Shown: positions 11,529 through 62,455 of the stretch, one piece after another | Layout of the letters: each line of letters starts with the position of its first letter | Numbering within the stretch: the first letter of the stretch is position 1 | Program-made: the position numbers and the translations under genes | Notes under the pieces: model-generated | What the model saw: only the letters and a program-made list of their open reading frames with translations | Database searches by the model: none | Told to the model about the DNA's origin: nothing | From: Prevotella sp. | GTDB lineage: Bacteria; Bacteroidota; Bacteroidia; Bacteroidales; Bacteroidaceae | Direction of reading: 5' to 3' | Assembly (NCBI GenBank): GCA_017557405.1 | Contig: JAFYYV010000002.1 | Location: forward strand, 36,049 to 100,048 | Length of the DNA stretch: 64,000 nt

Positions 11529-11622
11529 CCGTACATGCCACGTGTACAGTTAGTACAAACCACATGTACTACTAGTACAAGCCCTATGTACTGCTAGTAC
11601 ATGTGGCTTGTACTGATTTAAA
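11529..11622. repeat. 22-bp-period tandem array A
   Basis: TGTAC(T/A) occurs at 11543, 11565, 11587 and 11609, and TAGTACA at 11551, 11573 and 11595: both words repeat every 22 bp exactly. The units also form inverted repeats, the best being CCACATGTACTA (11560-11571) with TAGTACATGTGG (11595-11606). It sits between the stop of the beta-helix protein gene and the promoter of the lipoprotein operon. Confidence 0.85.
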
Positions 11623-11662
11623 GCTTATGTTTAAACAGATGTTGAACTTCTAGCCACCGCGA

Positions 11663-13858
11663 TTACTTGGCTGTAAAGCTATGGACGTTAGTGCTGCCCA
11701 CCGTCGAGGAACCGAGATAGAGGCCGTGGAAAACTGTAGTGGCATCAGTAGGAGGCGTTGTTGATGACCAGATGGTATAAGATCCGTTCTTCGTCATTCC
11801 CTTGGCTGTGACAAGCGACAGATTATTGGTAACCTTGGCCGCGAAGCTGTAAGTCACGAGATTGTTACCCGATGCATCAGCAAGCGTGTAATAGGTATTG
11901 GCGGCATAACTACTTGGCTTGGTGAGGAAAGCATAACCCTGTTTGGCATTCGAGACGGTACCCGACGTGCTGCTTTGCTTTCCTCCCGCACTGATGCCAA
12001 TGCCAGTGCCTGTAATCTGGATGTAATTGTTGTTGTCGCAATCGAAGCCTTCGTCAGGATCACCTTTGGTCATATAGGCCAACACAACACCATCCCCGAT
12101 GGTGATGGCCCCCGTGGTTTCCATATTGGAATCTACGGCATCGTTGCCTGTAGAGTAGCAGACGGAAACACCTCCGTTGAAAGAAATCTTACCCGCGGAA
12201 TTCATGCAATCATCATAGCATTCGAAATAATGTTTACCGCCACGGATATCGATGGCAGTCTTTGACTCTAAACCTTCAGCGCCATTGGTTTTCGTGTTCA
12301 CGGTAGTTTCGCCACCGTAGAGGATCGCAGCACAAATCACTTTGATGGCTTTGGAATCAGAACCTGCAGATTCTCTTCCACCACCGCCACCACCTGGTCC
12401 CCAACCACCAGGACCACCAGGGCCACCACCGCCGCCACTCGAACCACTACTACCGAGCGAGGCGCCTGTGGTATTGACAGTCAGGGTTGGACCTGTTCCA
12501 TCAGCGAGACCTTGTGTATAGGAACCCTTCACGTCCGTATATATAATCTTCAAGATCCTTCCAGTAGTAACCTTCTTTACCCCATAACCAGCACGAATGC
12601 CTTTACCACCAGTACCGTTCATATTGATGGTGATAGTGCCAGCGTTGAGCGCTATGTTCAGGGCTTTCAAACCCTTAGCGGTATAGTTGTCGCTACTGCC
12701 CGTCTGACCTGCACCACTATTGGTGATAGTCAATGTGCCACCATTAGTAGTAATGGCATCTTCTGCCGAAACACCGCGTCCTGCAGTACCCGTGATGGTC
12801 ATATTGATTGTTCCGCCATTCTGAGTGAACGATGCCGCCTTGATGCCCACCGTGTAGGATGGGTCGCTGGTGTTGGAAAGGTCAATAGCTCCACTAGCTT
12901 TCAAAGTGAGTGCGCCATCATTCACGATCACAGCACCTTCACTCTTGATGCACTTGGCAGCCTTGGCCGTGACATTAATGTCGAGCGTTCCACCCTTGAT
13001 AACGACCTCGCCCGTATTGTCTTCGTCTTCATCAGTGGAGATAACCTTGTCGTTGTCATCGGTTTCGAAACTCAATTGGATTCCATCGTCGCCCACGTTC
13101 TTAATGGTTACCGAACCGCCATTCTGTTGGAAGAACTGATTCACGTTGAATCCATCGCCTACAGCACCTAGAATATTGATGGTGCCTACGGTCTTCTTCA
13201 GTTGCACGTATTCCTTACCCCAGAAGGCATGAGCCGTGTTACCTGTGATGTTCAACGTGCCTCCGCCCTTGAACTCGGTATGACCTTTCACTGCAAAGCA
13301 AGCTTTCTGTTTTCCACCCGTTCCATCGGTCAACGTGTTGTTGGTACCATCGGCTAATTCAACTGAAATACGTTTCCCATCGCGGATATTGATAGCAGCA
13401 CTATCAGGATTGTTCAAAGTCAATCCGTTCAGGACGAACGAAGCTTTTAAGTCACCATCCATATAAAACGAACCATTGGAGGACGTTCCGCTGAGCGCGT
13501 AAGTGATTTCATCGGTCACGTTAGCGTCCTGCACAATACTCACATGAGCATTGCGAGTCGTAATCGTTAAGTTCTTGGCAATGTTTCCTGCCACTTTCAC
13601 AGCAGCGTTAGTGCCATTATAGCTCACACTCACGGTATTGTCTGTTACGGCCGTTTGGTCAATATACATGCTTTTCACCTCGCTCAAAGCAAAGGTCTTA
13701 CCCATGATTTCCACATCAGTACCATTGCTATACACCATATCCCCTGCTTGAGCGGCAGGAATCTGATACGTCACATTCCCCACTTCGACATTCAACGTTT
13801 GGGACTTGGACACAATGGCTATAGAAATAGCCGCAATAAGTATTATGATTCTTCTCAT
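11663..13858 (-). CDS. Secreted carbohydrate-binding domain-containing protein (Cthe_2159 / DUF4353 type)
   Basis: A 731-aa secreted protein with a signal peptide (MRRIIILIAAISIAIVSKSQ). Residues about 22-75 form a short beta module (VEVGNVTYQIPA, KTFALSEVKSMYI). The bulk is a parallel beta-helix-like repeat of short Gly/Asn/Thr turns (GGGTLNITGN, GGSVTIKNVGDDGIQL, GGTLDINVTAKAAKCIKSEG) typical of Cthe_2159, a polysaccharide-binding fold from Clostridium thermocellum. A Gly/Pro-rich stretch interrupts it near residues 465-495. Acidic Asp-rich loops suggest calcium sites (inference). Its start overlaps the stop of the small secreted gene upstream by ATGA, so translation is probably coupled. 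Confidence 0.8.
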   Translation of the reverse strand: MRRIIILIAAISIAIVSKSQTLNVEVGNVTYQIPAAQAGDMVYSNGTDVEIMGKTFALSEVKSMYIDQTAVTDNTVSVSYNGTNAAVKVAGNIAKNLTITTRNAHVSIVQDANVTDEITYALSGTSSNGSFYMDGDLKASFVLNGLTLNNPDSAAINIRDGKRISVELADGTNNTLTDGTGGKQKACFAVKGHTEFKGGGTLNITGNTAHAFWGKEYVQLKKTVGTINILGAVGDGFNVNQFFQQNGGSVTIKNVGDDGIQLSFETDDNDKVISTDEDEDNTGEVVIKGGTLDINVTAKAAKCIKSEGAVIVNDGALTLKASGAIDLSNTSDPSYTVGIKAASFTQNGGTINMTITGTAGRGVSAEDAITTNGGTLTITNSGAGQTGSSDNYTAKGLKALNIALNAGTITINMNGTGGKGIRAGYGVKKVTTGRILKIIYTDVKGSYTQGLADGTGPTLTVNTTGASLGSSGSSGGGGGPGGPGGWGPGGGGGGRESAGSDSKAIKVICAAILYGGETTVNTKTNGAEGLESKTAIDIRGGKHYFECYDDCMNSAGKISFNGGVSVCYSTGNDAVDSNMETTGAITIGDGVVLAYMTKGDPDEGFDCDNNNYIQITGTGIGISAGGKQSSTSGTVSNAKQGYAFLTKPSSYAANTYYTLADASGNNLVTYSFAAKVTNNLSLVTAKGMTKNGSYTIWSSTTPPTDATTVFHGLYLGSSTVGSTNVHSFTAK

Positions 13859-14262
13859 TTTACTGCGATTTTATAGATTTTGTCACTCTGCTTGACAATA
13901 TAAACGCCCATTGAGAGCATCTGTCTTGCTTGTTGGAGATTGCTGAATCTGCCCATGCTCACACCCGATGTTGTAAACACTTCCACCTCGGTATTGCTAT
14001 CTGTAGGCAGAGTCTCAACTATGTTAGTGACTGTAGAGTTCGTGAAATACATCTTGTTCAAATCCGAGAGACTGAAGGTTTGGTTCGTCTCACTATTCAC
14101 CGCCACCAACAGTCCGTTGGAAAAAGTGATTTTCAGGTTGCTGACCGAGAGGCAGGCCACAGTGCCATCGTTGCTTCGGAAAGCAAGATAATCATAGTCG
14201 GCAGCCTGGACAGAAAGGGCAAACGCCACGAAAACAATCGGTATTATCAATAATCGTTTCAT
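13855..14262 (-). CDS. Small secreted protein with type IX-like C-terminal tail
   Basis: A 135-aa protein: signal peptide (MKRLLIIPIVFVAFALSVQA), a beta module (YLAFRSNDGTVACLSVSNLK, FSLSDLNKMYF) and a C-terminal region EVFTTSGVSMGRF...GVYIVKQSDKIYKIAVK that resembles sorting or anchoring tails of Prevotella secreted proteins. The beta module recurs at the N-terminus of the downstream partner. The start at 14262 is chosen because residues upstream have no signal peptide and would overlap the -7 box. It is coupled by a 4-bp overlap to the large secreted gene. Precise function unknown. Confidence 0.7.
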   Translation of the reverse strand: MKRLLIIPIVFVAFALSVQAADYDYLAFRSNDGTVACLSVSNLKITFSNGLLVAVNSETNQTFSLSDLNKMYFTNSTVTNIVETLPTDSNTEVEVFTTSGVSMGRFSNLQQARQMLSMGVYIVKQSDKIYKIAVK

Positions 14263-14296
14263 AACCAAATAATGTCTTGATGGAATTGATGATGCC

Positions 14297-14304
14297 ACAA
14301 AGGT
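14297..14304 (-). promoter_or_regulatory. -7 element for the small/large secreted pair
   Basis: The minus strand reads TACCTTTG (TAnnTTTG). The usual -33 position falls inside the asd terminator hairpin and has no TTTG. Confidence 0.5.
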
Positions 14305-14305
14305 A

Positions 14306-14348
14306 CAAAAAAAATGCCTATTCACTTTCTTTTTTCAGTGAACAGGCA
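14306..14348 (-). terminator. Rho-independent terminator of asd
   Basis: On the minus strand a 12-bp stem (one G-U pair; 14337-14348 with 14315-14326), a 10-nt loop and a run of Ts (14306-14314). It lies about 55 bp after the asd stop. Confidence 0.85.
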
Positions 14349-14403
14349 AATAAATTCAGCAAAATGTGGATTAGAACCACTCTCTGCGTATATGAATTAG
14401 GTA

Positions 14404-15414
14404 TTATTTTACATTACCAACCTTGATAAGATATTCGGCAATCTGCACAGCGTTAAGGGCAGCACCTTTGCGGATCTGGTCGCCAGAAAGCCAGAAGGTC
14501 AAACCGTTTTCATCGGCCAAGTCCTTGCGAATGCGACCCACATAGACATCATCCTTACCTGCAGTCTCAAGCGGCATGGGATAAACAAGGTTCGAGGGAT
14601 CATCTTTCAATGTGCAACCAGGTGCAGCAGCGATGGCGGCACGAGCTTCCTCGACGCTGATAGGACGCTCTGTCTCAATCCAAACGCTCTCAGAGTGACT
14701 ACGCAATGAACTCACGCGTACACACATGGCAGAACAACGGGCATCGGTATGCATGATTTTTCGTGTCTCATTGAACATCTTCATCTCTTCCTTCGTGTAA
14801 CCGTTTTCGGTAAACACGTCAATCTGGGGAATCACGTTATAAGCCAACTGATGCGGGAACTTCTTGACTGTAACAGGCTGATCGTTCACTATTTCGTTAT
14901 ATTGTTGCTGTAATTCTGCCATAGCTGCGGCTCCTGCACCACTAGCACTCTGATAACTGGCCACATGGATGCGACGGATATGACTCAGGTTCTCAAGAGG
15001 CTGCAGAACTGTGACCATCATGATGGTAGTGCAATTGGGATTGGCGATGATGCCACGCGGACGATTCAATGCATCGTCAGGATTGCACTCAGGCACTACC
15101 AAGGGGACATCATCATCCATGCGGAAAGCACTCGAGTTATCAATCATCACGGCGCCATACTTCGTGATGGTCTCGGCAAACTCTTTGGAAGTACCACCAC
15201 CAGCTGACACAAAGGCGATGTCGATGTCGCGGAAGTCGTCATTGTGCTGCAGAAGTTTCACCTCATATTCTTTTCCTTTGAAGGTATATTTACGGCCAGC
15301 ACTACGCTCACTACCAAAAAGAACCAACTCATCCATCGGAAAAACACGCTCGGCGAGAATGCGCAGGAACTCTTGTCCCACGGCTCCGCTTGCACCAACA
15401 ATTGCTACTTTCAT
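14404..15414 (-). CDS. asd: Aspartate-semialdehyde dehydrogenase
   Basis: A 336-aa enzyme, the usual length. It makes L-aspartate 4-semialdehyde from aspartyl phosphate with NADPH, the branch point to lysine/diaminopimelate, threonine and methionine. Seen: nucleotide-binding GASGAVGQ at 7-14, [11 protein letters not shown] (70-80), the catalytic Cys128 in ANPNCTT, the [10 protein letters not shown] substrate loop (156-165) and catalytic His240 in SLRSHSES. Single-gene transcript with its own promoter and terminator. Confidence 0.97.
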
Positions 15415-15482
15415 CTTGATTAATTTCTCTTTATATTTTTATAATAGTTGTTGACTCAATCACAAATCATTTTTTTCGGCTG

Positions 15483-15490
15483 CAAAATTA
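15483..15490 (-). promoter_or_regulatory. -7 element for asd
   Basis: The minus strand reads TAATTTTG (TAnnTTTG), placing the transcription start about 60 nt before the asd start codon. No clear -33. Confidence 0.5.
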
Positions 15491-15570
15491 CAACTTTTCC
15501 CTCGTTTATGCGAATATTTGATATTTTTTTTGCACCTTTGCATAGCGAATTGCAAAACGAAGACATATTT

Positions 15571-17697
15571 ATGCCGAATTTATCCCAATATTTCCCCATT
15601 GCTGACCCTACGTTGATTTTCTTCGTAGTTTTGCTGATTATCCTATCGGCACCTATCATCATGGGAAAGCTACGCATTCCACATATCATCGGCATGGTAT
15701 TGGCTGGAGTTCTAGTGGGACAATACGGCTTAAATATTTTGAAGCGCGATGAGTCGTTTGAGCTTTTTGGAAAGGTGGGACTCTACTATATCATGTTCCT
15801 CGCCTCGCTCGAAATGGACATGGATGGACTTCGGAAGAACGCGAAACGCATAAGCATTTTCGGATTGCTGACCTTTGCTATTCCTTTTGGCGCCATGTTC
15901 CTTACTGCCATTACCTTATTGGGTTATTCGACGAAGACCTCATTCCTGATGGGTGCGTTGATGGCATCAAACACGTTGATAGCCTACCCCATTGTGGGAC
16001 GCTATGGTCTGCAACGCAAACCGAGCGTAACGTTGAGCGTAGGTGGTTCGATGCTCTCTCTGCTACTGGCACTCATTTGTTTGGCCGCACTCGTGGCTGC
16101 ACACGATGGCAACAGTGGATGGCTCTTCTGGCTATGGTTCTTGCTAAAGTTCGTGCTTTTTTGCGCCTTCCTGTTCTTCATCATCCCACGATTGGCTCGC
16201 TGGTTCCTACGCCGATACAGCGATGCCGTGATGCAGTTCATATTCGTGATGTCACTGCTCTTCATGAGTGCCGCATTGAGCGAGGCTGTCGGATTGGAAG
16301 GCATCGTGGGCGCATTCTTGTCAGGACTTATCCTGAACCGATACATCCCCCACGTGTCACCCTTGATGAATCGCATTGAATTCATCGGAAACGCACTCTT
16401 CATCCCCTATTTCCTTATTGGCGTGGGTATGCTTATCAATGTGCGGCTGCTCTTCGAAGGTGGCGCCATCATCTGGATAGTGCTGGCAATGGTGTTCTTC
16501 GGTACTTTCGGCAAGGCGGCTGCGGCTTATATTGCATGCCTATTCTTCCGCATGCCCGTCTCGTCAGGCCATATGATGTTCGGTCTGACCTCTGCCCACG
16601 CAGCTGGAGCCATTGCGATGGTCATGGTGGGAATGAACATTCACGTAGGTAATGGATATCTCGTGAGCGATGACATTTTGAATGGTGTCATTATCATGAT
16701 TCTCTTTACTTGTATCATCTCCACACTCGTTACGGAGGCAGCAGCACAACAAATCACCATCCGCGACAAAGATATGCCACGTGACGATGGAAATGCCGAT
16801 GGTGACGACGAGAAGATGCTCATTCCTGTGAAATATCCTGAATATGCCAACCGATTGATTAATCTGGCCATATTGACCCGCAATGCGAAACTGAACAGAG
16901 GATTGGTGGCGTTGAATGTTGTTTATGATGATGCCAACATGCGGCGCAATCAGGAAAACGGACAACAACTGCTTGAAAAAGTAACACAATATGCTGCAGG
17001 AAGCGATGTTAGAGTGCAAACACAAGTGCGCATCGCCGCCAACATCGCCAATGGCATCAAGCATGCTTTCAAGGAATTCCGTGCCAGCGAGATCATCATT
17101 GGCATGCACCAGCATAAAGAGGTGTCGCCAAAGTTCTGGGGCGAGTTCCACCAAAGCCTATTTAATGGGCTGAATCGCCAAATCATTATGGCACGACTGA
17201 AGCAACCGCTCAATACTGTACGACGTATCCAGGTGGCTGTGCCATCGAGAGCCCAATTCGAACCAGGTTTCTACCGATGGTTGGAACGTCTGTCACGTCT
17301 GGCCGAGAATCTGGAATGCCGCATCATCTTCCACGGACGTGACGATACTCTTGCTCTTTTGCGCGAATATGTGCAAAACCGCCACCAAAGCGTAAGGGCT
17401 GAGTATTTGTCAATGACACATTGGAACGAACTTCCACAACTCGCCGGCACCATCGCCGAAGATCATCTCTTCGTGGTGGTTACCGCCCGTAAAGGAACCG
17501 TTTCTTATAAGACAGCCATGGAGCGACTTCCCGAAGAACTGACACGTTACTTCAGCGGAACAAGCATGATGATTATCTTCCCCGATCAATTCGGCGACGC
17601 TATGGACGAAATGACATTCGCACAGCCACAACATACTGAGGAGCAAAGTGCTTACGATATTGTGCGCGGCTGGCTGAAACGGACAATAAAACTATAA
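15571..17697 (+). CDS. Cation:proton antiporter (CPA2, KefB-like) with C-terminal USP-like region
   Basis: A 708-aa protein. Residues 1-410 hold about 12 transmembrane helices of the Na+/H+ exchanger fold, including the conserved [20 protein letters not shown] (about 31-50), [17 protein letters not shown] in the core helix, and [18 protein letters not shown]. The C-terminal 280 residues are soluble with two universal-stress-protein-like halves ([38 protein letters not shown]), a common fusion in Bacteroidetes. The ion is unknown. The start at 15571 is preferred: the longer frame to 15448 adds a non-conserved, low-quality leader. The next gene follows after 5 bp, so they are co-transcribed. 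Confidence 0.88.
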
Positions 17698-17702
17698 AAA
17701 CA

Positions 17703-18470
17703 ATGATAGATATTCAAGGAATCACCAAAAGTTTCGGTTCACTACAAGTGCTCAAAGGCATCGACCTCCATATCGACAAAGGCGAGGTGGTCAGCATTGT
17801 GGGACCCAGTGGTGCTGGAAAGACAACACTATTGCAAATCATTGGTACACTCGATAAACCCGATGCTGGTACTGTGCATGTTGATGGAATCGACACTACC
17901 ACGCTTAGTCAGAAGAAATTGAGCGACTTCCGCAACCAGCACATCGGTTTTGTGTTCCAGTTCCACCAACTGCTACCCGAGTTCACGGCTATCGAAAATA
18001 TTATGATACCCGCCTTCATCGCAGGGAAATCACATAAAGAAGCCCAGCAACGAGCACAAGAGTTGCTCGATTTCATGGGACTTACTGAACGCGCTAGCCA
18101 TAAACCCGCTGAACTTTCGGGTGGTGAAAAGCAACGCATTGCTGTAGCTCGTGCATTGGTCAACAATCCTGCTGTGATTTTGGCAGATGAACCTAGTGGA
18201 AGCCTTGATAGCAAAAACAAAGCCGAACTGCATCAACTATTCTTCGACCTTCGCGATCGTTACGGACAAACTTTCGTGATTGTGACCCACGACGAGTCGT
18301 TGGCAAGCATTACCGACCGCACTATCCATCTGCGCGATGGTCTCATAGAAGATCCATCCCCACTCCCCACGTCAACAGAAGACGAGGAAGTTATCCAACA
18401 CCCAACACCCAACATCCAAGAAGAACCATGTCAAATCTCAGACTCGGCGACTACAATCGCCTCAGAATAA
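17703..18470 (+). CDS. ABC transporter ATP-binding protein, LolD-like
   Basis: A 255-aa ATPase of the MacB/LolD class. Walker [10 protein letters not shown] (34-42), Q-loop [18 protein letters not shown], signature [15 protein letters not shown], Walker [13 protein letters not shown] and switch His in VTHDES are intact. No permease gene is adjacent, so the transport partner (lipoprotein release or other) is unproven. After the conserved core ends (near residue 215) a 40-residue Pro/Glu/Thr-rich tail runs into the next gene: the last 43 bp overlap the start of the S1-domain gene in another frame. LolD proteins usually lack such a tail. Confidence 0.88.
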
Positions 18471-19288: not shown

Positions 19289-19317
19289 AGAATCCAGAAA
19301 CTATAATAAAGACAAGT

Positions 19318-19734: not shown

Positions 19735-19780
19735 AAACGAATGATAAGACGAATGAAAACGATTCATTCTGTATAAAATA

Positions 19781-19813: not shown

Positions 19814-19847
19814 ATGATTATGGTCCTATTAAAGGAATCCGCGTCTC

Positions 19848-31364: not shown

Positions 31365-31460
31365 TAAGGAGAGGAGGGAGTCAGAGGGAGAGGAAGGAGT
31401 TAGAGACCATTAGCTTAACTATTGAAAGAGTATTAGCTTAACTATTGAAAGAGTATTGGC
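31365..31460. repeat. GA-rich repeat plus 23-bp tandem duplication
   Basis: A copy of the GGAGTTAGAG(A)CCATTAGC element at 31396-31416 is followed by a 23-bp direct duplication starting ATTAGCTTAACTATTG (31409-31431 and 31432-31454) and the beginning of a third unit. It lies downstream of rluB and upstream of the four-helix-bundle gene. Confidence 0.75.
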
Positions 31461-31539
31461 TTCCGCTTCATCTACTACCTCTGCTTCTTTTACTACCTTT
31501 ACTTCTCCTACATCTTCTTCCTTAACTTCTTCTACTACA

Positions 31540-34467: not shown

Positions 34468-34687
34468 CAAATTATAATTGAAAACGGCTCAAAGAATATG
34501 AAAAAGGTTGTTAAAAGCGCACAAGGAAATAACTATTTTAGATGAAAGAAGAAAGATGAAAGATGAAAGGATGCTGAAAAAACATGACAAATTTTTGTCG
34601 ACTTTTTCGTTCAATCTAGAAAAGATAAACGAGTGAGAAAACGACTTTTCCACTCCAATTTCCTCATTTTTCACATACGAAATTGTC

Positions 34688-34819
34688 ACTTGTATCATCT
34701 GAGGCTCTCAGATGTGGTAAATGACACGCTTACTTGTGGCATCTGACACCCTCAAATGCCACATCTGACGGGCTCATTGCATAGCTTTTGGTGGTCAGAC
34801 GTATACCTCTGACAGGATT
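34688..34819. repeat. 22-bp-period tandem array B
   Basis: Six units in register. ATCTGA or a close variant falls at 34697, 34719 (AAATGA), 34741, 34763 and 34807 (CTCTGA), all multiples of 22 bp; the fifth unit (34776-34797) has drifted. CAGATGTGG (34709-34717) and CCACATCTG (34759-34767) are perfect inverted copies. It lies in the 628-bp gap between the ACT-protein gene and purB. From 34820 to 34960 I see nothing. Confidence 0.85.
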
Positions 34820-34966
34820 GTAAAATGTAAAGAAAACGGAAGTCGTTGATTTACAACATTTTCCAAAAACGCTCAAAACTCGCGTATTTGCTCACGAGAA
34901 ACATTTTTTTCAAAACGATGGCCTTCTCGTAGTACCAAAATTCAGAATTTTCTTTACATAATGAGA

Positions 34967-46680: not shown

Positions 46681-46812
46681 ATGCCGCCACTTGTATCCTC
46701 TCGAGTTGTCAGACATATCCTATGGCAAAGTAAAATAAACTATTTTGCAAAGTAAAATAGACTATTTTACCGACCAAAATAGACTATTTTACTTTCTTAT
46801 ATGTGGCATCTT
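46681..46812. repeat. 22-bp-period tandem array C
   Basis: Three strong units at 46725-46746, 46747-46768 and 46769-46790 share the palindromic core AAAATAGACTATTTT (first unit AAAATAAACTATTTT), exactly 22 bp apart. Two weaker units precede in register (46681-46702, 46703-46724; CCACTTGTATC resembles array B) and one follows (TGTGGCATCT). It fills the middle of the 314-bp gap between guaB and the TonB-domain gene. Confidence 0.88.
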
Positions 46813-52649: not shown

Positions 52650-54002
52650 TTATTCTGCCATGAGTTTGTTGAACTCATCGAGCGAAACCTTCTTCTCGTT
52701 AAGTTTCACAACATCCTTCAGGGCGGCAGTCAACTTCTTGTCGATGGCGCGATCAACATAGTTCTGGATGTTTTCCTCCTTCTTGAGCATCTCATCGGCA
52801 TAGTTGTTGAGATAGTCGTCAGGGACATTGTTCATGCCATACTGAGCAAACTGAGCGCGGGCGGCCTCACGGGCAGCAGTCTTCACATCGTTGTCGTCGA
52901 CCTTGATCTCTGTGGCGTTCACCAGCTGCTCCTTGATGAGGTGCCAAGCCAGTTCCTTGATGCTGCCTTCGTAGTTCTTCTCCACGTAGTCGGCATCCTT
53001 ATCCTGGTTGTTCTGCTGCATGATGCGCTTCAGCAGAGCATCGGGGAATGTCAAATCACCCACCTTCTGCTCCATGTACTTGCGAACATCCTGCAAGAAC
53101 TTCCAATCGCTGTTGCTCACGAGCTGAGCCTGAATCTCGCTGGCGATACGAGCACGGAACTCCTCTTCGCTCTTCACGGCGGCAGCACCATAAATCTGGT
53201 CGAACAACTCCTGATTCACCTCAGCCTTCTGATAACGGCTGATTTCCGTGATCTGATAGCTGAAGTCGCCAGTGTGGAAGCCTAGATCGGCCTTGTCAAC
53301 CTTGAGGAAAGAAGCCAGTTCGGCGTCACTCTCATAAGCCTTGCGAGGATTGAAAGTGATGATGTCGCCAAGCTTTGCGCCCTCGAAGAGTTTCTTCTGA
53401 TCCTCGTTCTTGACATAAGCAGGCATCACGATGGCTTCGCTCACCTCGATACCACCTTCCTTGGTGCTACCATCGGCCTCCAATTCGCGAAGGTCGCCCT
53501 TCAGCAAATCGTTTCCTTCGTAGCTTTCCACCTTCTCATATTGGCCGTTACGGCTGGCGAACATATCAACCTGCTGGTCGATGAGTTTGTCGTCAACGTC
53601 GATGGTATAATAATCGATGGCGTCCTTGCTTGTCAGTTCAGCTTTGAACTCGGGAGCCACTGCGATATCGAACTTGAATGTGTAGGGTGCATCGTGCTCC
53701 AAATCCACGGGATCAGCCTCCAAGTTTGGCATCGGCTCGCCCAGCATCTGGATGTTGTTGTCCTTCACGTATTTGTAAATCTGCTCACCAACGAACTTGT
53801 TGATAGCTTCCATTTTGACAGATGTGCCAAACTGACGCTGGATGAGACCCATGGGAACCATACCCGGGCGGAATCCAGGGATGTTGGCGCGTTTGCGATA
53901 ATCCTTCAATGTCTTCTCGACATTCTCCTTGTAATCGGCCTCTTCTACGGTGATGGTCAGCAGGCCGTTGATCTTGTCGTTGTTTTCAAATGAAATGTTC
54001 AT
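52650..54002 (-). CDS. tig: Trigger factor
   Basis: A 450-aa ribosome-bound chaperone. Ribosome-docking tail GFRPGMVPMGLIQRQFG at about 43-59 (a variant of the GFRxGxxP signature), a degenerate FKBP-like domain (DLLKGDLRELEADGSTKEGG, about 165-240) and a helical C-terminal substrate cradle (ATEIKVDDNDVKTAAREAAR). The PPIase active-site residues are poorly conserved, as in other Bacteroidetes. Own promoter and terminator. Confidence 0.95.
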   Translation of the reverse strand: MNISFENNDKINGLLTITVEEADYKENVEKTLKDYRKRANIPGFRPGMVPMGLIQRQFGTSVKMEAINKFVGEQIYKYVKDNNIQMLGEPMPNLEADPVDLEHDAPYTFKFDIAVAPEFKAELTSKDAIDYYTIDVDDKLIDQQVDMFASRNGQYEKVESYEGNDLLKGDLRELEADGSTKEGGIEVSEAIVMPAYVKNEDQKKLFEGAKLGDIITFNPRKAYESDAELASFLKVDKADLGFHTGDFSYQITEISRYQKAEVNQELFDQIYGAAAVKSEEEFRARIASEIQAQLVSNSDWKFLQDVRKYMEQKVGDLTFPDALLKRIMQQNNQDKDADYVEKNYEGSIKELAWHLIKEQLVNATEIKVDDNDVKTAAREAARAQFAQYGMNNVPDDYLNNYADEMLKKEENIQNYVDRAIDKKLTAALKDVVKLNEKKVSLDEFNKLMAE

Positions 54003-54060: not shown

Positions 54061-54141
54061 CACATTTTTCCTCGAATGGACTAACAATTGAGAAATAATT
54101 TGCTTTTTTTACATAAAACACCATAAAGTTATTAGCAATTA

Positions 54142-54251
54142 TCATGCCAAAGACCACAAATGACGTTGTTAAAGACCATCAATGACAAGGTCAAAGCTAT
54201 GCAATGACGAGGTCAAAGCTATGGAATGAGGGGCTCAATGCTATGCAATGA
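54142..54251. repeat. 22-bp-period tandem array D
   Basis: Five contiguous 22-bp units, each ending AATGA, at 54159, 54181, 54203, 54225 and 54247 (exact spacing). The three right-hand units share AAAGCTATG or CAATGCTATG cores, the two left-hand ones AAAGACCA. It lies in the 638-bp gap between lptB and tig. Confidence 0.92.
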
Positions 54252-54271
54252 CAACACCACTTTTTCCCGCG

Positions 54272-54590
54272 TGTGACAATTGGGACAATTAGACACCTCT
54301 TTTTTCTGCGCCCCGCTTTTCGCAGATATTCCTGAGTGATTGATTATCAATAAGTTATATAAAATATTTAATATATATTAATAATAATAACTATATATTT
54401 AACTATATATTAACATAGATATAGCCTGTTTTTATGGCTATTCTTATCGATTTTGATGGTTGTTGCTTCAATTTCAAGCAGAGGAACCCTACATTTTCAA
54501 CATGTCAAGAATCTCCTCCCCTTGGGGAAAGGTTGGGAGGGGACTCTCAAGTGTGTAAAAAACGACTGTCTAATTGTCCTAATTGTCACA
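54272..54590. repeat. 319-bp element bounded by 24-bp inverted repeats
   Basis: The left end 54272-54295 (TGTGACAATTGGGACAATTA...) and the right end 54567-54590 are inverted copies matching at 23 of 24 positions; each end is itself a tandem GACAATT repeat. The interior is A/T-rich (54340-54420), with a small ATAGCC/GGCTAT hairpin and a CCTCCCCTTGGGG...GGGAGGGG dyad, and has no open frame. No target-site duplication is evident. Could be a MITE-like remnant or a long-range RNA stem. Confidence 0.7.
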
Positions 54591-54640
54591 AAGTTGAAAA
54601 AGCACTGCCCTGAATCAACTTCCAGTTCGTGGCAAACACA

Positions 54641-55561: not shown

Positions 55562-55580
55562 AATCGAATTGTTTTGGCGG

Positions 55581-55588
55581 CAAAGTTA
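55581..55588 (-). promoter_or_regulatory. -7 element for lptB
   Basis: The minus strand reads TAACTTTG, giving a leader of about 13 nt. It shares a 99-bp divergent gap with the mlaE promoter. Confidence 0.5.
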
Positions 55589-55631
55589 CTATTTTTTTTC
55601 CATTCTTCAATATTATTTCCCCTCTTTTTCG

Positions 55632-55639
55632 TATCTTTG
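55632..55639 (+). promoter_or_regulatory. -7 element for mlaE-mlaF
   Basis: TATCTTTG on the plus strand, with the expected transcription start about 15 nt before the mlaE ATG. No clear -33. Confidence 0.55.
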
Positions 55640-55660
55640 CCGACATAAACCTGCAAGACT

Positions 55661-56407
55661 ATGCTCATTGTCAAAGCACTACAAACATTCGGACGCTATC
55701 TGATGCTCATGGGTCGCACTTTTTCAATGCCCGAGCGCATGCGCATGTTCTGGAAACAATATGTGAAGGAGATGTCGCAATTGGGTGTTGACAGCATCGG
55801 CATCGTGCTGCTCATCTCGTTTTTCATCGGCGCCGTCATCTGCATACAGATGAAGGTGAACATCGAAAGTCCGTGGATGCCGCGTTGGGTGGCAGGCTAC
55901 ACCACCCGCGAAATCATGCTGTTGGAATTCTCCAGCAGTATCATGTGTCTGATTCTGTCAGGAAAAGTAGGGTCGAACATTGCTTCGGAACTGGGAACCA
56001 TGCGCGTTACACAACAGATTGACGCGTTGGAGATCATGGGCGTGAACTCAGCCAGCTATCTCATCCTACCGAAGATTCTCGGATTGATCACCATCATGCC
56101 TTTCCTCGTGATATTCTCGTCGGCGACAGGCATATTGGGAGCTTACGGCACCGCCTATATCGGGCACATTTTGTCGCCCGAGGACCTGACAGAAGGCTTG
56201 CAACACTCGTTCGTGCCTTGGTTCATGTACATGTCGATCATCAAGAGCCTGTTCTTCGCGTTCATCATCTCGAGCGTCTCTTCATTCTACGGATACACCG
56301 TTGAGGGCGGCTCGGTGGAAGTGGGAAAAGCCTCGACAGACGCTGTGGTGTCATCGTCGGTTTTGATTTTGTTCAGTGACGTATTCTTAACACAGATTTT
56401 ATCATGA
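55661..56407 (+). CDS. mlaE: MlaE-type ABC transporter permease
   Basis: A 248-aa inner-membrane permease with about five hydrophobic segments and the family stretches LGVDSIGIVLLISFFIGAVI, TTREIMLLEFSSSIMCLILS, GKVGSNIASELGTMRVTQQI and DALEIMGVNSASYLILPKIL. MlaE with MlaF moves phospholipids between membranes to keep outer-membrane asymmetry. The MCE protein MlaD is not encoded directly after; it may be elsewhere. Overlaps mlaF by 4 bp (ATGA). Confidence 0.93.
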   Translation: MLIVKALQTFGRYLMLMGRTFSMPERMRMFWKQYVKEMSQLGVDSIGIVLLISFFIGAVICIQMKVNIESPWMPRWVAGYTTREIMLLEFSSSIMCLILSGKVGSNIASELGTMRVTQQIDALEIMGVNSASYLILPKILGLITIMPFLVIFSSATGILGAYGTAYIGHILSPEDLTEGLQHSFVPWFMYMSIIKSLFFAFIISSVSSFYGYTVEGGSVEVGKASTDAVVSSSVLILFSDVFLTQILS

Positions 56408-57237
56408 TCGAAGTATGTCATTTATATAAGTCGTTCGAAGACAAAGAAGTGCTGAAGGATATCAGTACGGTGTTCGAAGACGGCAAGACGAACCTCATCA
56501 TTGGCCAGTCGGGTTCTGGAAAGACCGTATTGATGAAAAACCTGGTGGGTCTTTTGGAACCTACAAGCGGTCAAGTGCTCTACGATGGGCGTGACTTCGT
56601 ACAGATGTCGAAGAAAGAGAAAGTAATGATGAGACGCGAGATGGGCATGATATTCCAGAGTGCCGCCCTCTTCGATTCGCTGTCTGTGTTGGAAAATGTG
56701 ATGTTCCCACTCGACATGTTCTCGCCGATGACATTTCGTGAACGTCAGCAACGTGCAATGGAATGCTTGGAGCGCGTGAACCTTCGTGGCGCCGAGAACA
56801 AATATCCAGCCGAGATATCGGGCGGTATGCAGAAACGTGTAGCCATCGCGCGAGCCATCGTGCTAAATCCGAAGTACTTGTTCTGCGATGAGCCGAATAG
56901 TGGTCTCGATCCGAAGACTTCGTTGGTAATCGACGACCTATTGTCGGGTATCACCCACGATTTGGGCATCACAACCATCATCAACACCCACGACATGAAT
57001 TCGGTGATGGGCATTGGTGAGAACATCATCTTCATCTACAAAGGTGAGAAGGAATGGCAGGGCGTTTCATCGCAAGTAATGCACTCAAGCAATCGTCGTC
57101 TGACAGACTTCATCTTCGCGAGCGACCTATTGAAGAACATGCGCGAAGTGGTCATTGAGAACGATATTGAGTTCGAACACAAAAAGCACTTGGAAGAAGG
57201 GGAAAATGCAGATTTACCACCTTCGCCAAATGCTTAA
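56404..57237 (+). CDS. mlaF: MlaF-type ABC transporter ATP-binding protein
   Basis: A 277-aa ATPase: Walker A GQSGSGKTVLMKNLVGLL (about 36-53), Q-loop MIFQSAALFDSLSVLENVMF, signature ISGGMQKRVAIARAI, Walker B YLFCDEPNSGLDPKTS and INTHDMNSVMGIGENI. The FxDEPxxGLDP form and SGGM signature are typical of MlaF/Mkl. The C-terminal 40 residues are charged. Coupled to mlaE; ends 20 bp from the opposing lipoprotein gene. Confidence 0.94.
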   Translation: MIEVCHLYKSFEDKEVLKDISTVFEDGKTNLIIGQSGSGKTVLMKNLVGLLEPTSGQVLYDGRDFVQMSKKEKVMMRREMGMIFQSAALFDSLSVLENVMFPLDMFSPMTFRERQQRAMECLERVNLRGAENKYPAEISGGMQKRVAIARAIVLNPKYLFCDEPNSGLDPKTSLVIDDLLSGITHDLGITTIINTHDMNSVMGIGENIIFIYKGEKEWQGVSSQVMHSSNRRLTDFIFASDLLKNMREVVIENDIEFEHKKHLEEGENADLPPSPNA

Positions 57238-57257
57238 CTATTGGAGGAGTATTTGGA

Positions 57258-57644
57258 TTATCGCAGATACCAAATACCTTTGCTTTCTATCATGGGAACA
57301 TTGACTTCCTCACTGGTGGAATCGCCATAAGTGAAGACGAGGAAGACATTAGCTGTATGAAGGGCGGTGTCGGCATCAGCATTCACGATGCGCGTCTCCT
57401 TGATGCCGCGGTGCTCTCGTTGTTGCTGCTTGATAAACATACGAGCGTTGGTAATAAGTCCCGAACGATAGCTTTCTGGAATGCTGTCGGGCATATAGTG
57501 TCCTTCAACGAAAGACTCGTATTTGCCCTTAAGCAGATAGTCGTAGTATTGCTTGGCAGCATGAGCGGCTTTGTCGGCAGGATTGATGCGTGAACAAGCC
57601 ACCAACACGAGTCCAAAGACAGCTATGTAAAACAGCTTTTTCAT
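57258..57644 (-). CDS. DUF4878-like lipoprotein
   Basis: A 128-aa protein with lipobox LVAC ([17 protein letters not shown]) and an NTF2-like/DUF4878 pattern: AAHAAKQYYDYLLKGKYESF, SGLITNARMFIKQQQREH, IVNADADTALHTANVFLVFT and IESKGIWYLR. Start 57644 shares one base with the der stop (TAATG), indicating coupling. Probably a small envelope protein; function unknown. Confidence 0.78.
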   Translation of the reverse strand: MKKLFYIAVFGLVLVACSRINPADKAAHAAKQYYDYLLKGKYESFVEGHYMPDSIPESYRSGLITNARMFIKQQQREHRGIKETRIVNADADTALHTANVFLVFTYGDSTSEEVNVPMIESKGIWYLR

Positions 57645-58957
57645 TATTTCTGACGAATGAAAACGTTGATGGGACAACCTGTCATCGGCCAGTTCTCGCG
57701 TATCTTGTTCTCGAGGAAACGACGATAGTTCTCCTTGATATACTGCGGCAGATTGGCATAGAACACGAAGGTGGGTATCTGCGTATCAGGAACCTGCGAA
57801 CAATACTTGATTTTAATGTATTTTCCCTTGATGCTGGGTGGTGGCGTAGCCTCGATGATGGGGAGCATCACCTCGTTGAGTTTCGTGGTTCCAACCTTCG
57901 CCTTGCGGTTTAGATAAACCTGCTTGGCTGTTTCGAGCACGCGGAAGATGCGTTGTTTGGTCAATGCCGAAGCAAAAATGATGGGGAAGTCGGTAAATGG
58001 AGCCATACGCTCACGAATAGCATTCTCGAACGTCTTGATGGCAATGGTCGACTTGTCTTCCACCAAATCCCACTTGTTGACAACCACCACAATTGATTTG
58101 TTGTTCTTCTGAATGATCTGGAAGATGTTCATATCTTGCGCCTCTATACCACGAGTAGAATCGATCATGAGAATGCAAACATCGCTGTTCTCAATGGCTC
58201 GGATAGAACGCATGACAGAATAGAACTCAAGATCCTCACTCACCTTGTTCTTGCGGCGAATACCGGCGGTGTCAACAAGATAGAAATCGAATCCGAATTT
58301 GTCGTAGCGCGTATAGATGCTGTCGCGTGTAGTACCAGCAATCTCAGTGACGATATTACGGTCTTCACCAATGAAAGCATTAATGAGACTCGACTTACCT
58401 GCATTCGGGCGTCCTACCACAGCAAAACGAGGAATACCTTCTTCAATTTGTTCATCAGTCACAGACGGCAGTTTCTCAATGATGAGATCGAGTAAATCGC
58501 CCGTTCCGCTACCTGTAGCCGAACTGATGCAATAAGGTTCACCCAAACCGAGTTTGTAGAACTCATACGAATCGTATATCTGTGTGCTGTTGTCGGCTTT
58601 GTTGGCCACCAACACGACAGGAAGTTTCGTACGACGCAGAATCTCTGCAACATCCTGATCAAGGTCGGTCAGGCCTGTGGTTACATCAACGAGGAAGAGC
58701 ACGAGGTCGGCTTCTTCAGTTGCCACAAGCACTTGTTTGCGAATCTCGCCTTCAAATATGTCGTCACTATTGACCACCCATCCACCGGTGTCAACCACCG
58801 AAAACTCATGTCCGCACCATTCGCATTTGCCATATTGGCGGTCGCGTGTAGTGCCTGCTTCAGGACTCACAATGGCACGACGGCTTTTTGTCAGTCGATT
58901 GAAAAGAGTGGACTTGCCTACATTGGGACGTCCTACGATTGCTACTAAATTTCCCAT
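57644..58957 (-). CDS. der: Ribosome biogenesis GTPase Der
   Basis: A 437-aa double-GTPase (EngA). First G domain with [19 protein letters not shown] and NKAD; second with [21 protein letters not shown] and NKWDLV; C-terminal KH-like domain. It acts in 50S subunit maturation. It is in the era-der cluster and touches both neighbours by one shared base (TAATG). Confidence 0.97.
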
Positions 58958-59355
58958 TATTCTATTACCTCCACAAGTTCAAATTTATATTTCTTGCCCC
59001 GGCTGTTGGTGAAAGTCCCTTTGAAACTATCGCCACGCAGTTCGCGCTGACCATCGAAGGTTCCCGTATGATTGCCTTTGGGCGTATATTCTTTCATAAC
59101 CATATGCATGCTGCCTTTTGTATTCACGGCTTCGTGCTTCACCAACTTCAGCGTGAAATGCGTCTTCGGGCGCTCGTCATAATAATAGTAGCCCGCCACT
59201 TCACCCTCGTTCCATACGGGTGGATACAGGAACAGCGTAATTGCGTATGGTCCTATCTTACCCGCGAACTTCGTCGTTTCTTTTTCTTGTGCTAAAGCGA
59301 TATTAACAGAAAGCACCACCGTGAGACACAACAACAGCATTCTCTTCATATTCAT
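58957..59355 (-). CDS. Hypothetical secreted protein
   Basis: About 132 aa with signal peptide ([20 protein letters not shown]). The mature part is beta-rich: [70 protein letters not shown]. No recognised family. Starts at 59355 or 59349 fit the era stop (59366). Its stop overlaps the der start by one base, so it is embedded in the era-der operon despite being exported. Confidence 0.7.
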
Positions 59356-59365
59356 TCCTCCCTTT

Positions 59366-60247
59366 TTAATCCGGATTATATCCAAAAGCGTCCAATTCGC
59401 GTTGTGAGTTTCGCCAATCCTTATCCACCTTCACATATGTCTCCAGATTGATTTTCTTTCCAAAGAACTTCTCCAATGCCTTTCTGCTTTCCATACCCAC
59501 TTTCTTCAAAGCCACACCTTGATGACCGATGATGATGCCTTTCTGGCTCTCGCGCTCTACATAGATGACGGCGTGAATATCAATGCGGTCTTCCGTCTCT
59601 TTGAACGAATCCACTCGAACCTCGACTGCATAAGGCACTTCCTTGTCGTAATAAAGCAGAATCTTCTCACGGATGATCTCGCTCACGAAGAAGCGTGCGG
59701 GTTTGTCGGTCAGTTGGTCTTTTTCGAAATAAGGTGGCGAATCGGGCAACAGTTCTTTGATACGTTTCAACAACATGTCAACACCAAATTTGTTTGCTGC
59801 CGAGATGGGAAGTATCTCAGCATTGGGCAGCAACGAATGCCACTTCTCAACCAAGTTGCCAAGCGTCTGTTGGTCGCTTAGGTCAATCTTATTGATGAGC
59901 AGCAAGACAGGGATCTTCATCTTCGCCACCTTCTCCAAGAAATCCATGTTCTTCTCGGGGTTCTCCACCACGTCGGTCACATAGAGCAGCACATCGGCAT
60001 CAGCCAGCGCACTTTCCGAAAACGCCAGCATCATCTCCTGCATCTTGTAGTTGGGCTTCAAGACGCCAGGCGTGTCGCTGAAGACAATCTGCATGTCGTC
60101 AGTGTTTACAATGCCCATGATGCGATGTCGCGTTGTCTGTGCCTTGAAAGTGGCTATCGAGATGCGTTCACCCACGAGTTGGTTCATCAGCGTTGATTTG
60201 CCAACGTTGGGATTGCCTACGATATTTACGAAACCTGCTTTGTGCAT
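59366..60247 (-). CDS. era: GTPase Era
   Basis: A 293-aa protein: GTPase domain with [14 protein letters not shown] (about 10-23), FSDTPG, LLINKIDLSD, SAANKFGVD, and a KH RNA-binding domain at the C-terminus (GIIIGHQGVALKKVGMESRK, the GxxGxxL-like core). Era helps 16S rRNA 3'-end processing and 30S assembly. fabH ends 147 bp upstream. Confidence 0.97.
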   Translation of the reverse strand: MHKAGFVNIVGNPNVGKSTLMNQLVGERISIATFKAQTTRHRIMGIVNTDDMQIVFSDTPGVLKPNYKMQEMMLAFSESALADADVLLYVTDVVENPEKNMDFLEKVAKMKIPVLLLINKIDLSDQQTLGNLVEKWHSLLPNAEILPISAANKFGVDMLLKRIKELLPDSPPYFEKDQLTDKPARFFVSEIIREKILLYYDKEVPYAVEVRVDSFKETEDRIDIHAVIYVERESQKGIIIGHQGVALKKVGMESRKALEKFFGKKINLETYVKVDKDWRNSQRELDAFGYNPD

Positions 60248-60394
60248 ATTCTTATGTTTTGATGTTGAATTGTATGAAACAAAATTCAGGAGTCAACAAG
60301 CCCAGAAGTCCACACATGCCCGCACCCGTCAAAGGCGCATCGAGAACATGCAAGAACTACTGTAACTCCTTGGCTCCTGAGTTTCTTTATCCAG

Positions 60395-61414
60395 TTACTT
60401 TTTGGTCGCTGCTGTAGCGCCGTCGTAAGCCCACTTGAAGAGCGAGGCTCCATGCGTGAAACCTGCTCCAAACGCGGTAAGCACCACGTTGTCGCCTTTC
60501 TTGAAGTTCTTCTCGTTGTCCCAAATCGCAAGCGGAATGGTTGCACCACTCGTGTTACCATACCGTTCGATGTTGACCACAATCTTCTCCATCGGCAGAT
60601 CGATACGCTTGGCGACTGCCTCGATGATGCGCAGGTTAGCCTCGTGAGGCACCACCCAATTCACATCTTCGTTGGTCAATCCATTGCGTTTCAAAACCTC
60701 AGTCACGTCGTCGGCCATGCTAGTCACAGCATAACGGAACACCGTGCGACCCTCTTGGTAGATGTAATGCAAACGATGCGACACCGTGAAATGCGAAGGA
60801 GGACAAACCGATCCACCTGCCTTCATATGAAGGAACGGAAGACCTTTGCCGTCGGTGCGGAAATAGGCGTCTTGCATACCGACGCCTTCCTCCTCTGTAG
60901 CTTCCACCATCACAGCTCCAGCGCCATCACCGAAAAGCACACATGTCTGGCGATCGGTGTAATCCACCATCGACGACATTTTGTCGGCGCCTATCACGAT
61001 GATTCGCTTGCAACGACCGCATTTGATCATCGACGAAGCGAGGTCAAGGGCATACATGAATCCGGCGCAAGCAGCCGACGTGTCGAACGCAAACGCATTC
61101 TTAAGACCCAGTTTGCCCACTACCACCGAAGCCGTAGGGGGGAATTTGTAGTCGGGAGTGGTTGTAGCGACAATCAATGCATCGATGGTATCAGGATCAA
61201 CGCCCGTCTTCTGAAGCAGCATTTTGGCGGCTTTGCGAGCCATGTAGCTCGTGCCCAAACCCTCTTCTGTCAGGATATGGCGTTCTTTGATACCTACACG
61301 CGTCATGATCCACTCGTCGTTGGTGTCTACCATCCGAGCCAGCTCCTCATTAGTGAGAATGTAGTCGGGAACGTATCCACCCACGCCAGTGATAATCGCG
61401 TTTATCTTTCCCAT
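60395..61414 (-). CDS. fabH: 3-oxoacyl-ACP synthase III (FabH)
   Basis: A 339-aa condensing enzyme that starts fatty-acid synthesis from acetyl-CoA (or branched primers) and malonyl-ACP. Catalytic triad Cys116 (DTSAACAGFMYAL), His257 (WVVPHEANLRI) and Asn287 (RYGNTSGATIPLAI) is complete. Follows rpmF by 3 bp, the conserved yceD-rpmF-fabH order. Confidence 0.97.
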   Translation of the reverse strand: MGKINAIITGVGGYVPDYILTNEELARMVDTNDEWIMTRVGIKERHILTEEGLGTSYMARKAAKMLLQKTGVDPDTIDALIVATTTPDYKFPPTASVVVGKLGLKNAFAFDTSAACAGFMYALDLASSMIKCGRCKRIIVIGADKMSSMVDYTDRQTCVLFGDGAGAVMVEATEEEGVGMQDAYFRTDGKGLPFLHMKAGGSVCPPSHFTVSHRLHYIYQEGRTVFRYAVTSMADDVTEVLKRNGLTNEDVNWVVPHEANLRIIEAVAKRIDLPMEKIVVNIERYGNTSGATIPLAIWDNEKNFKKGDNVVLTAFGAGFTHGASLFKWAYDGATAATKK

Positions 61415-61417
61415 TGA

Positions 61418-61603
61418 TTATTCTGCAACTTCCTGAACGATAGCGACTTTTCCTCTGTAGTAGCCACAGGTGGGACATACAGTGTGGTAAACATAGTATG
61501 CGCCACAGTTGGGGCAAACTGCCAGCGTGGGAGCCACTGCCTTATCATGAGTTCTTCTTTTCAGTGTACGAGTCTTCGACTGTCTTCTTTTAGGATGTGC
61601 CAT
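61418..61603 (-). CDS. rpmF: 50S ribosomal protein L32
   Basis: 61 aa, basic N-terminus (MAHPKRRQSKTRTLKRR) and an intact zinc ribbon: Cys30, Cys33, Cys43 and Cys46 in CPNC and CPTC. Lies between the DUF177 gene and fabH, 27 and 3 bp away. Confidence 0.98.
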   Translation of the reverse strand: MAHPKRRQSKTRTLKRRTHDKAVAPTLAVCPNCGAYYVYHTVCPTCGYYRGKVAIVQEVAE

Positions 61604-61630
61604 AATACTATTAACTTTTAAATTATATTT

Positions 61631-62158
61631 TTATTCTTTTATTTTCAAATTCTTCAACTTTTCCCAGCGCGGGTCAATTGGCTCTTCTTCCGTTTCGCCT
61701 ATGTGCGTTGCATTGAGTTCGTCAAGCACCTTCGTCATCGCAGGATTGCATTCTCCCGGCGCATGTACATGCTTGATGGGAATGTCGAGAGCCACAAACT
61801 CATAGATGACCCACGACACATCGAGCGTTCCTTCATTCTCGTCAACGGTCACGAGTTCGTCATCTGTGTTGCTTTCTTCCATGCCGAATTGAGCGACCAG
61901 TCGGTTTCTGACATCAATGGGTTGCTCCATATCGTCCAAACACAAGTCGCAGGGCACGTGTACCACTCCCACGCAATGGAATTCCAGCTCAAACACGTCG
62001 CCCATTCTCTTCACATCCAAGTCGACATGTATATCGCCACGCTCCACTTCTGGGGCATCGATCGCCTTAAAGTAATCGTCGTTTAAATCGAACTGGAAAT
62101 GCGAAACGCCATCCTCCAGCCGCTTCAGATTGATCTGTAAGGTATCCAATGTACACAT
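61631..62158 (-). CDS. DUF177 (YceD) family protein
   Basis: A 175-aa protein with the family CDLCLDDM motif (about 83-90) in HVPCDLCLDDMEQPIDV, and an acidic C-terminal half. YceD/DUF177 proteins are encoded next to rpmF and in plants take part in 23S rRNA maturation. First gene of the rpmF-fabH-era-der run. The predicted promoter lies only about 8 bp before the ATG, so the mRNA may be leaderless. Confidence 0.92.
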   Translation of the reverse strand: MCTLDTLQINLKRLEDGVSHFQFDLNDDYFKAIDAPEVERGDIHVDLDVKRMGDVFELEFHCVGVVHVPCDLCLDDMEQPIDVRNRLVAQFGMEESNTDDELVTVDENEGTLDVSWVIYEFVALDIPIKHVHAPGECNPAMTKVLDELNATHIGETEEEPIDPRWEKLKNLKIKE

Positions 62159-62166
62159 TTGGGGTG

Positions 62167-62174
62167 CAAAGTTA
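62167..62174 (-). promoter_or_regulatory. -7 element for the DUF177-rpmF-fabH operon
   Basis: The minus strand reads TAACTTTG. Only eight bases separate it from the annotated ATG at 62158, implying a very short or no 5' leader. 62175-62367 is A/T-rich with no other feature seen. Confidence 0.5.
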
Positions 62175-62367
62175 CTATTTTTTTCCGAGATAAAAAAAGA
62201 ATTCCCGATTTTTTAATTTATTTCAAAACAAAAATATAGGAAAACCGCTTTTCCATGAAAATCATTTTGTCAACAAAAAGAATTATTTCGCGACACTATG
62301 CTACCAAAAAGGTTGAATTTAATAACCAATTTGTTGAAAGTTTTTACCTTTTCTCTTGTTTTCTCAT

Positions 62368-62455
62368 AGCTATGCTTTAAGCGAATAAAAGCTATGCTTT
62401 GATCGACCAAAAGCATAGCTTTGACCCTTCAAAAAGCATGCTTTCATTTTGTCAA
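62368..62455. repeat. 22-bp-period tandem array E
   Basis: GCTTT falls at 62374, 62396, 62418 and 62440, exactly 22 bp apart. Units share palindromic cores AAAGCTATGCTTT or AAAGCATAGCTTT, and the last AAAGCATGCTTT. It sits about 30 bp past the stop of the sensor-kinase gene in the 327-bp gap to the DUF177 gene. Confidence 0.9.

Follow-up and report, generated by a model that had tools for sequence, protein, structure and literature searches.

The closest described counterpart of the repeats considered here is BrickBuilt of Porphyromonas gingivalis, which combines a minisatellite with a miniature inverted-repeat transposable element (MITE) and is described as having a 23-nt repeat, in 1 to 22.8 copies per element, and IS5-like terminal inverted repeats (TIRs) of the GAGACCTTTGCA type (Klein et al. 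2015, PMC4596501); the W83 genome paper, as cited in the same source, reported 22-nt repeats. Five intergenic tandem arrays, A to E, were examined at about 11.55, 34.75, 46.75, 54.2 and 62.4 kb of a 64,000-nt stretch of a Prevotella sp. genome (contig JAFYYV010000002.1), hereafter the window. The P. gingivalis parallel had been raised in a first-pass annotation of this DNA, and BrickBuilt, at 23 nt, turns out to be its close published form. Both are intergenic, dispersed and multi-copy, with imperfect tandem repeats of near-identical length set between a leader and a tail, and both occur in the same phylum. Unlike BrickBuilt, for which the account in PMC4596501 gives a single repeat of variable number, the Prevotella arrays use several unrelated-looking words at period 22 and several leader/tail types, with unit number mostly fixed per type, and they do so in many species. 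As far as that account goes, the likeness is one of layout and repeat length.

The arrays of the window, together with the two repeated elements that contain B and E, are as follows.

11529..11617, minus strand: array A, about four units AGTACA-N7-TGTACT-N3 with period 22, from Tandem Repeats Finder and the word pattern
34573..34958, plus strand: copy of the fam2 element (leader, array B and tail; locus L304), which this genome has in at least 32 places
34686..34817, plus strand: array B, within the fam2 element, about six mixed-word 22-bp units (TGTGGCAT, GCATAGC, GTATACC)
46722..46800, plus strand: array C, three to four units of 22 bp, AAAATAG-A-CTATTTT plus a 7-bp spacer
54147..54256, plus strand: array D, five units TCAAAG-N5-CWWTGA-N5 with the words GACCA and CTATGC, upstream of gene 52650-54002
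62258..62455, plus strand: copy of the fam3 element (leader and four-unit array E; locus L338), one of 21 places
62365..62452, plus strand: array E, four 22-bp units with the word AAAGCTATGCTTT

All five period-22 arrays claimed in the first-pass annotation are real: Tandem Repeats Finder calls period 22 for four of them (11531-11601, 46725-46790, 54148-54252 and 62368-62422), and array B, more degenerate and unlisted by that program, has the period by eye and by alignment with its sister copies. Lag 22 is also the top lag of the intergenic sequence of the window, with 5 matches against a shuffle mean of 0. The sharing of words between arrays is confirmed: D and E have AAAGCTATGC in common and B and E have GCATAGCTTT, while TGTGGCATCT occurs in B and C, in the latter case outside the array.

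The period extends far beyond the window. Lags of 15 to 60 bp were compared in 20 spaced 20-kb stretches of this 3.56-Mb genome (an unbiased sample of 400 kb, 33.8 kb of it intergenic), low-complexity matches being filtered from the lag, dyad, unit and gap counts, with relatives left unfiltered in one analysis. In intergenic sequence, lag 22 yielded 14 arrays and lag 44 yielded 11, whereas the other 44 lags, which served as background, averaged 0.32 with a maximum of 2; extrapolation suggests perhaps a hundred such arrays in this genome. Genes are nearly free of them, as had been stated earlier, lag 22 giving 3 matches in open reading frames (ORFs) against a mean of 1.11 for other lags. In 57 stretches from genomes of the same genus (119.7 kb intergenic), lag 22 gave 30 matches against a mean of 1.52 and a maximum of 6, with other words, although some of the two-copy matches may be chance. 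Outside the family, 40 stretches from the same order (52.7 kb intergenic) showed no peak (1 match against a mean of 0.36). A single array, two copies 22 bp apart of the near-perfect palindrome TTTATCAC[AG]CGTGATAAA, came from eight short stretches of other genera in the family, so that 22-bp arrays may reach beyond the genus, small as this sample is. The first-pass annotation had proposed a length-conserved, sequence-divergent set and had named a genomic 22-bp peak over background as its check; the peak is there, relatives carry other words at the same period, and the proposal survives the comparison that could have overturned it.

The independence of period from sequence was followed through word patterns searched with the gaps left free, where matches of one array overlap and counts are consequently not independent events. 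Of 80 loci listed from one search that gave at least 108 stretches, 12, not labelled Prevotella or kin, were left out of the count that followed. For AAAGCTATGC, all 35 listed matches in this genome repeat at 22 bp, as do all 10 in one relative (G012), with no control matches in either. The pattern GCTATGCTTT, searched in 301 genomes of the family, gave 22 in 21 of 22 listed matches. AGTACA...TGTACT...AGTACA, the pattern of array A, is also present elsewhere in this genome, on contigs C9, C43 and C48; among 200 genomes of the genus it matched in 9, with 22 in 28 of 30 listed matches, and its backward control matched in 3 genomes. GTATAA...TTATAC...GTATAA matched in 6 of 100 genomes, with 22 in 102 of 105 listed matches and 23, 24 and 26 as the exceptions. 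Its backward control, AATATG..CATATT..AATATG, was not silent: G093 gave 204 matches on the forward strand and 205 on the reverse, and G017, G427 and G428 gave between 5 and 11 on each strand. Probably the reversed pattern is itself a palindromic word used as arrays in those genomes, and so a further array family. GTTCGCGAAC, found in 2 of 100 genomes, gave 22 in all 26 listed matches, corresponding to 13 places on both strands, with controls at 0. Genomes G003 and G026 use the words GTATAA/TTATAC, GTTCGCGAAC and TTTCA[CT]CATGGTGA, G024 uses GGTAATC/GATTACC and AAACGTTT, and still others occur in further genomes.

Even within a family the spacers may shift while their sum does not: AGTACA half-sites are separated by 7+3 bp in most genomes, by 8+2 in contig C24 of G521 (four matches) and by 5+5 in G453 (a single match that could be chance), with period 22 throughout. 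What is conserved is length and not half-site geometry. Stop codons in all frames were considered as the cause of the period and set aside, the GTTCGCGAAC family not fitting by eye. With phage origin in mind, viral contigs were compared as well; the word pattern matched seven stretches there, three of which (L384, L389 and L386) are 22-bp arrays by eye, the remaining four having other spacings or the look of chance; L384 and L389 are two AAAGCATAGCTTT arrays on one viral-listed IMG/VR contig, UViG_2558860931.

In this genome the unit derived from 36 arrays (145 units) is TCAWWG-N5-CWWTGA-S-NNN-S, where only units with at least four of the six TCA/TGA letters were kept, which biases those six profile columns upward. 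TCAAAG/CTTTGA half-sites recur in the same orientation at 22, 44 and 66 bp and in the opposite one at 11, 33 and 55 bp, with single counts elsewhere (44 sources, 23 of them pre-selected by the AAAGCTATGC pattern), which places them on a lattice of 11 bp with alternating orientation. Between neighbouring units, identity in the three central columns of the spacer is 0.37-0.42, compared with 0.25-0.32 between arrays. As neighbouring spacers are almost as divergent as those of different arrays, the units are not recent copies of one another, and the near-identical neighbours and variable unit number expected of minisatellite slippage are not seen, given this spacer identity and the full length of 27 of 30 fam2 arrays. 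Contrary to this divergence, several arrays in genome G419 consist of identical or near-identical listed units.

Constraint on the half-sites is clearest in the 30 aligned fam2 copies, a comparison free of the TCA/TGA selection bias. Conservation reaches 0.93 in half-site columns, against 0.78 in spacers, 0.80 in words, 0.81 in the leader, 0.85 in the tail and 0.84 in base-matched leader and tail columns (permutation p=0.0002, the top of all 22 phases), although the array as a whole, at 0.83, stands no higher than its flanks. The dyad symmetry ascribed to most units fares less well. Across the population there is enrichment (mean z 0.90 for 14 arrays and 1.01 for 30), but in single arrays the symmetry is weak: p<=0.05 is reached by only 3 of 14 arrays, 4 of 30, and 1 of the 5 in the window, so the claim does not hold for most single arrays. 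It should be noted that a circular dyad score over the whole unit is weakly informative, because it counts random spacers.

Many arrays belong to dispersed elements, and the first-pass alternative of a repeat-spreading process was partly right for that reason. The fam2 element, about 385 bp long, occupies at least 32 places of at least 250 bp in this genome, a lower bound from the 40 of 190 candidates that were scored; two of the 32, without a locus, were left out of the alignment. Its array is 22 bp shorter in two aligned copies and 10 bp shorter in one. For fam3, with 21 places holding leader and array, the distance from leader word to end word is 115 bp in 17 of 20 measured copies and 116 bp in the other three. 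One fam3 copy (L342, contig C8 of this genome) keeps the usual leader and lattice but uses other words (AAAGACCAC), which gives the impression of an exchange of words in place. Among rumen relatives, fam2 leader and tail recur in L078 of Prevotella sp. RGIG7148, where the leader has 92% identity across 98 bp, with shorter matches in L047 and L064 (Prevotellaceae RUG11493); the host of the arrays is therefore probably a rumen Prevotella. When 118 relatives and this genome were probed with fam2, scoring 5 candidates for each genome listed, 3 of the relatives yielded weak fragments. Both fam2 and fam3 have the BrickBuilt-type layout of a multi-copy intergenic tandem repeat with conserved leader and tail, at a period of 22 instead of 23 nt, and IS5-like TIRs of the BrickBuilt type were not seen by eye at fam2 borders. 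By eye, TTTTGTC[AG]A is all that the fam2 borders have in common, and there it is inverted; at the fam3 borders it forms a direct repeat. No signal of target-site duplication rose clear of mismatched pairings in the 30 fam2 copies, the best of about 2700 combinations of offset and length being 6 observed against 2.2 expected, for 2 bp.

The period, its independence of sequence, the half-site constraint and the dispersed multi-copy elements can be regarded as established here. The explanation favoured, at a probability of roughly 45%, is that the arrays are lattices of operator half-sites for putative DNA-binding proteins and are carried by non-autonomous dispersed elements. Putative, probably dimeric, proteins would line up end to end, each with a footprint of 22 bp, and each word family would be read by its own protein. 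Many arrays would travel on non-autonomous intergenic elements of the leader, array and tail type, BrickBuilt-like, and binding would serve either the spread of the element or the folding or insulation of the chromosome. Binding itself, the setting of the period by the bound protein, and the role in spread or in folding and insulation are what we infer. A lattice is the simplest model for exact spacing combined with free spacers, constrained half-sites and changing words, and carriage on dispersed elements would explain copy number, intergenic location and species-specific words. The first-pass suggestion of a protein bound in a row along the DNA gains indirect support, through the lattice and column conservation. 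A broader version, rather doubtful at present, would make this a genus-wide system with a true ruler of 22 bp: DNA-binding (or copying) proteins of one fast-evolving family would each use a palindromic word of their own and all set the same 22-bp repeat, at up to about a hundred intergenic arrays per genome, the words being replaced between species and the length staying fixed.

Several observations weigh against the favoured explanation. No binding protein was identified. The split of half-sites within the unit varies by family (5+5, 7+3, 8+2, 4+6, 0+12), which a single dimer geometry would not predict, and period 21 is rare (2 matches against 30 in same-genus genomes) although a pure helical-phase constraint would permit it; because 21 is rare, a footprint or a copying ruler explains the constant total better than one dimer geometry or helical phase. 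The peak is also uneven: lag-22 matches occur in 9 of the 12 tabulated same-genus genomes, 15 of their 28 matches come from G026 (9) and G003 (6), and G019 has none in 100 kb. Finally, one family in G026 has period 23, at the following places.

L212, 13962-14007: 23-bp family copy in G026
L213, 7973-8020: 23-bp family copy in G026
L214, 16093-16140: 23-bp family copy in G026
L215, 14794-14921: 23-bp family copy in G026

For three of the four, a 22-bp GTATAA array is found no more than about 110 bp away, and the combination has the look of a composite element.

The earlier statement that arrays lie only between co-directional genes applies to the five of the window, all between minus-strand genes by the chosen ORFs (the right-hand gene at 35.0 kb being ambiguous), but fails in the 400-kb sample, where 5 of 12 classifiable arrays are in co-directional, 4 in convergent and 3 in divergent gaps. 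Array D lies in a 638-bp gap upstream of gene 52650-54002, which, from its start, we take to encode a trigger factor. In the loci of 29 relatives, the gap immediately upstream of this gene held no lag-22 array; these loci amount to 25 real tests, four (L268, L270, L274 and L283) being discounted for another ORF picked, an ORF overlap or a contig end. The closest two relatives, at 71% identity, have gaps of 115 and 191 bp there. Without ORF masking, 2 of the 29 neighbourhoods carry 22-bp arrays, about 1.1 kb upstream in G006 and on the downstream side in G028.

L267, 3930-4021 (G006): 22-bp array near the trigger-factor gene, word AAATCAATTTGATTTAC..
L271, 1135-1187 and 1242-1335 (G028): 22-bp arrays near the trigger-factor gene, word AACAATGTTATTAACTTTGTTG

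By eye, the arrays at L009, L010, L013 and L025 start right after terminator-like hairpins with T runs, which suggests a preferred place.

Three other explanations have to be weighed. It is improbable, though conceivable, that the arrays come from a process of copying or integration that itself measures out 22 bp, so that no protein need read the finished array. Such a ruler would account for a total that stays at 22 in unrelated-looking words although their half-sites are split differently, for the identical or near-identical listed units of G419, and for two fam2 arrays being short by exactly one unit; it sits poorly with neighbouring spacers in this genome that diverge nearly as much as those of separate arrays, with half-site columns conserved above the rest, and with the full-length array of most fam2 copies (27/30). 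Less probable still are functionless passenger minisatellites in MITE-like elements, the published interpretation of BrickBuilt, with the period inherited by descent. The residence of arrays in dispersed leader/tail elements, a fam2 array that as a whole is no better conserved than leader or tail, and the lack of an array in relatives at the spot of array D would all fit; descent, however, leaves the same period in unrelated-looking words unexplained, and the little variation in unit number (the same 27 of 30 copies), the constrained half-sites and the missing target-site duplication signal of fam2 speak against passengers.

The first-pass annotation had also offered structured RNA, which now appears the weaker reading and is about as improbable as the passengers: palindromic units would fold on transcription, or as hairpin DNA, and act in termination, processing or 3'-end protection. 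On the two strands, arrays A (z -6.5/-6.0), C (-4.2/-3.8) and E (-3.5/-3.5) fold well and B moderately (-2.2/-3.3), but D does not fold (-0.2 and 0.04). In this genome z falls below -2 for 14 of 36 arrays (median -1.8) compared with 6 of 40 control stretches (median -0.9). The fam2 consensus fold exceeds that of column shuffles (-6.6 against -0.55, standard deviation 1.06; -8.3 against -1.2, standard deviation 1.4), which also break the palindromes themselves, yet -6.6 and -8.3 kcal/mol over 373 columns is weak. Arrays in convergent and divergent gaps also speak against an RNA role, and the Rfam matches of the window at gathering thresholds are limited to a 5S rRNA and two tRNAs, with none at the arrays. 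As array D keeps the lattice without folding, folding may be a by-product of palindromic words. Structured RNA was accordingly rejected as a general cause, on array D and the weak fam2 consensus fold, and kept as a rival to the half-site lattice.

Two further repeats of the window stand apart from the arrays.

54269..54590, plus strand: separate element with TIRs of about 34 bp (GTGTGACAATTGGGACAATTAGACA...), adjoining array D
31409-31462: clean period-23 tandem repeat (ATTAGCTTAACTATTGAAAGAGT, 96% matches), unlike the 22-bp arrays

Related copies of the TIR element occur elsewhere in this genome, with up to 96% identity to the query copy in L026.

Sequence is the usual basis for defining a repeat family, whereas here length is conserved and sequence is free. 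A conserved length implies a factor that measures length at perhaps a hundred sites in this genome, in a major rumen and gut genus, and any single array could be used as bait for the putative factor, which makes a direct test possible.

Among other described systems, palindromic repeats of the repetitive extragenic palindromic (REP) and bacterial interspersed mosaic element (BIME) type, with their GTAG and CGTC superfamilies, are likewise short, extragenic, present in many copies and grouped in several families per genome (PMC3733652). As these superfamilies are outlined there, the consensus unit described here differs in having neither tag and in forming a strict 22-bp tandem lattice. A REP system with its REP-associated tyrosine transposase was rejected: the sole PF01797 (Y1) match in the genome scores 24.9 bits (cut-off 23), and its 3.2-kb locus has no lag-22 array. 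For the binding model, BldC of Streptomyces, a small protein said to bind direct DNA repeats as cooperative multimers (PMC5859096), offers a precedent, but from another phylum, and nothing ties a BldC relative to these arrays. DNA-structure features of prokaryote genomes have been surveyed (PMC4060949), and titles and abstract openings in the open-access literature gave no account of a 22-bp sequence-divergent set in Prevotella. Clustered regularly interspaced short palindromic repeats (CRISPR) were rejected on unit layout, since long repeats and long unique spacers would be expected and here the unit measures 22 bp in all, its 5-bp spacers included. BOX elements of Streptococcus pneumoniae are modular intergenic elements with a tandem inner module between outer modules and resemble the elements described here in that respect, and we know of no multi-word 22-bp rule for them. 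The ends of Tn7 and of phage Mu carry repeated 22-bp transposase binding sites, which, going by their general description, are not palindromic lattices.

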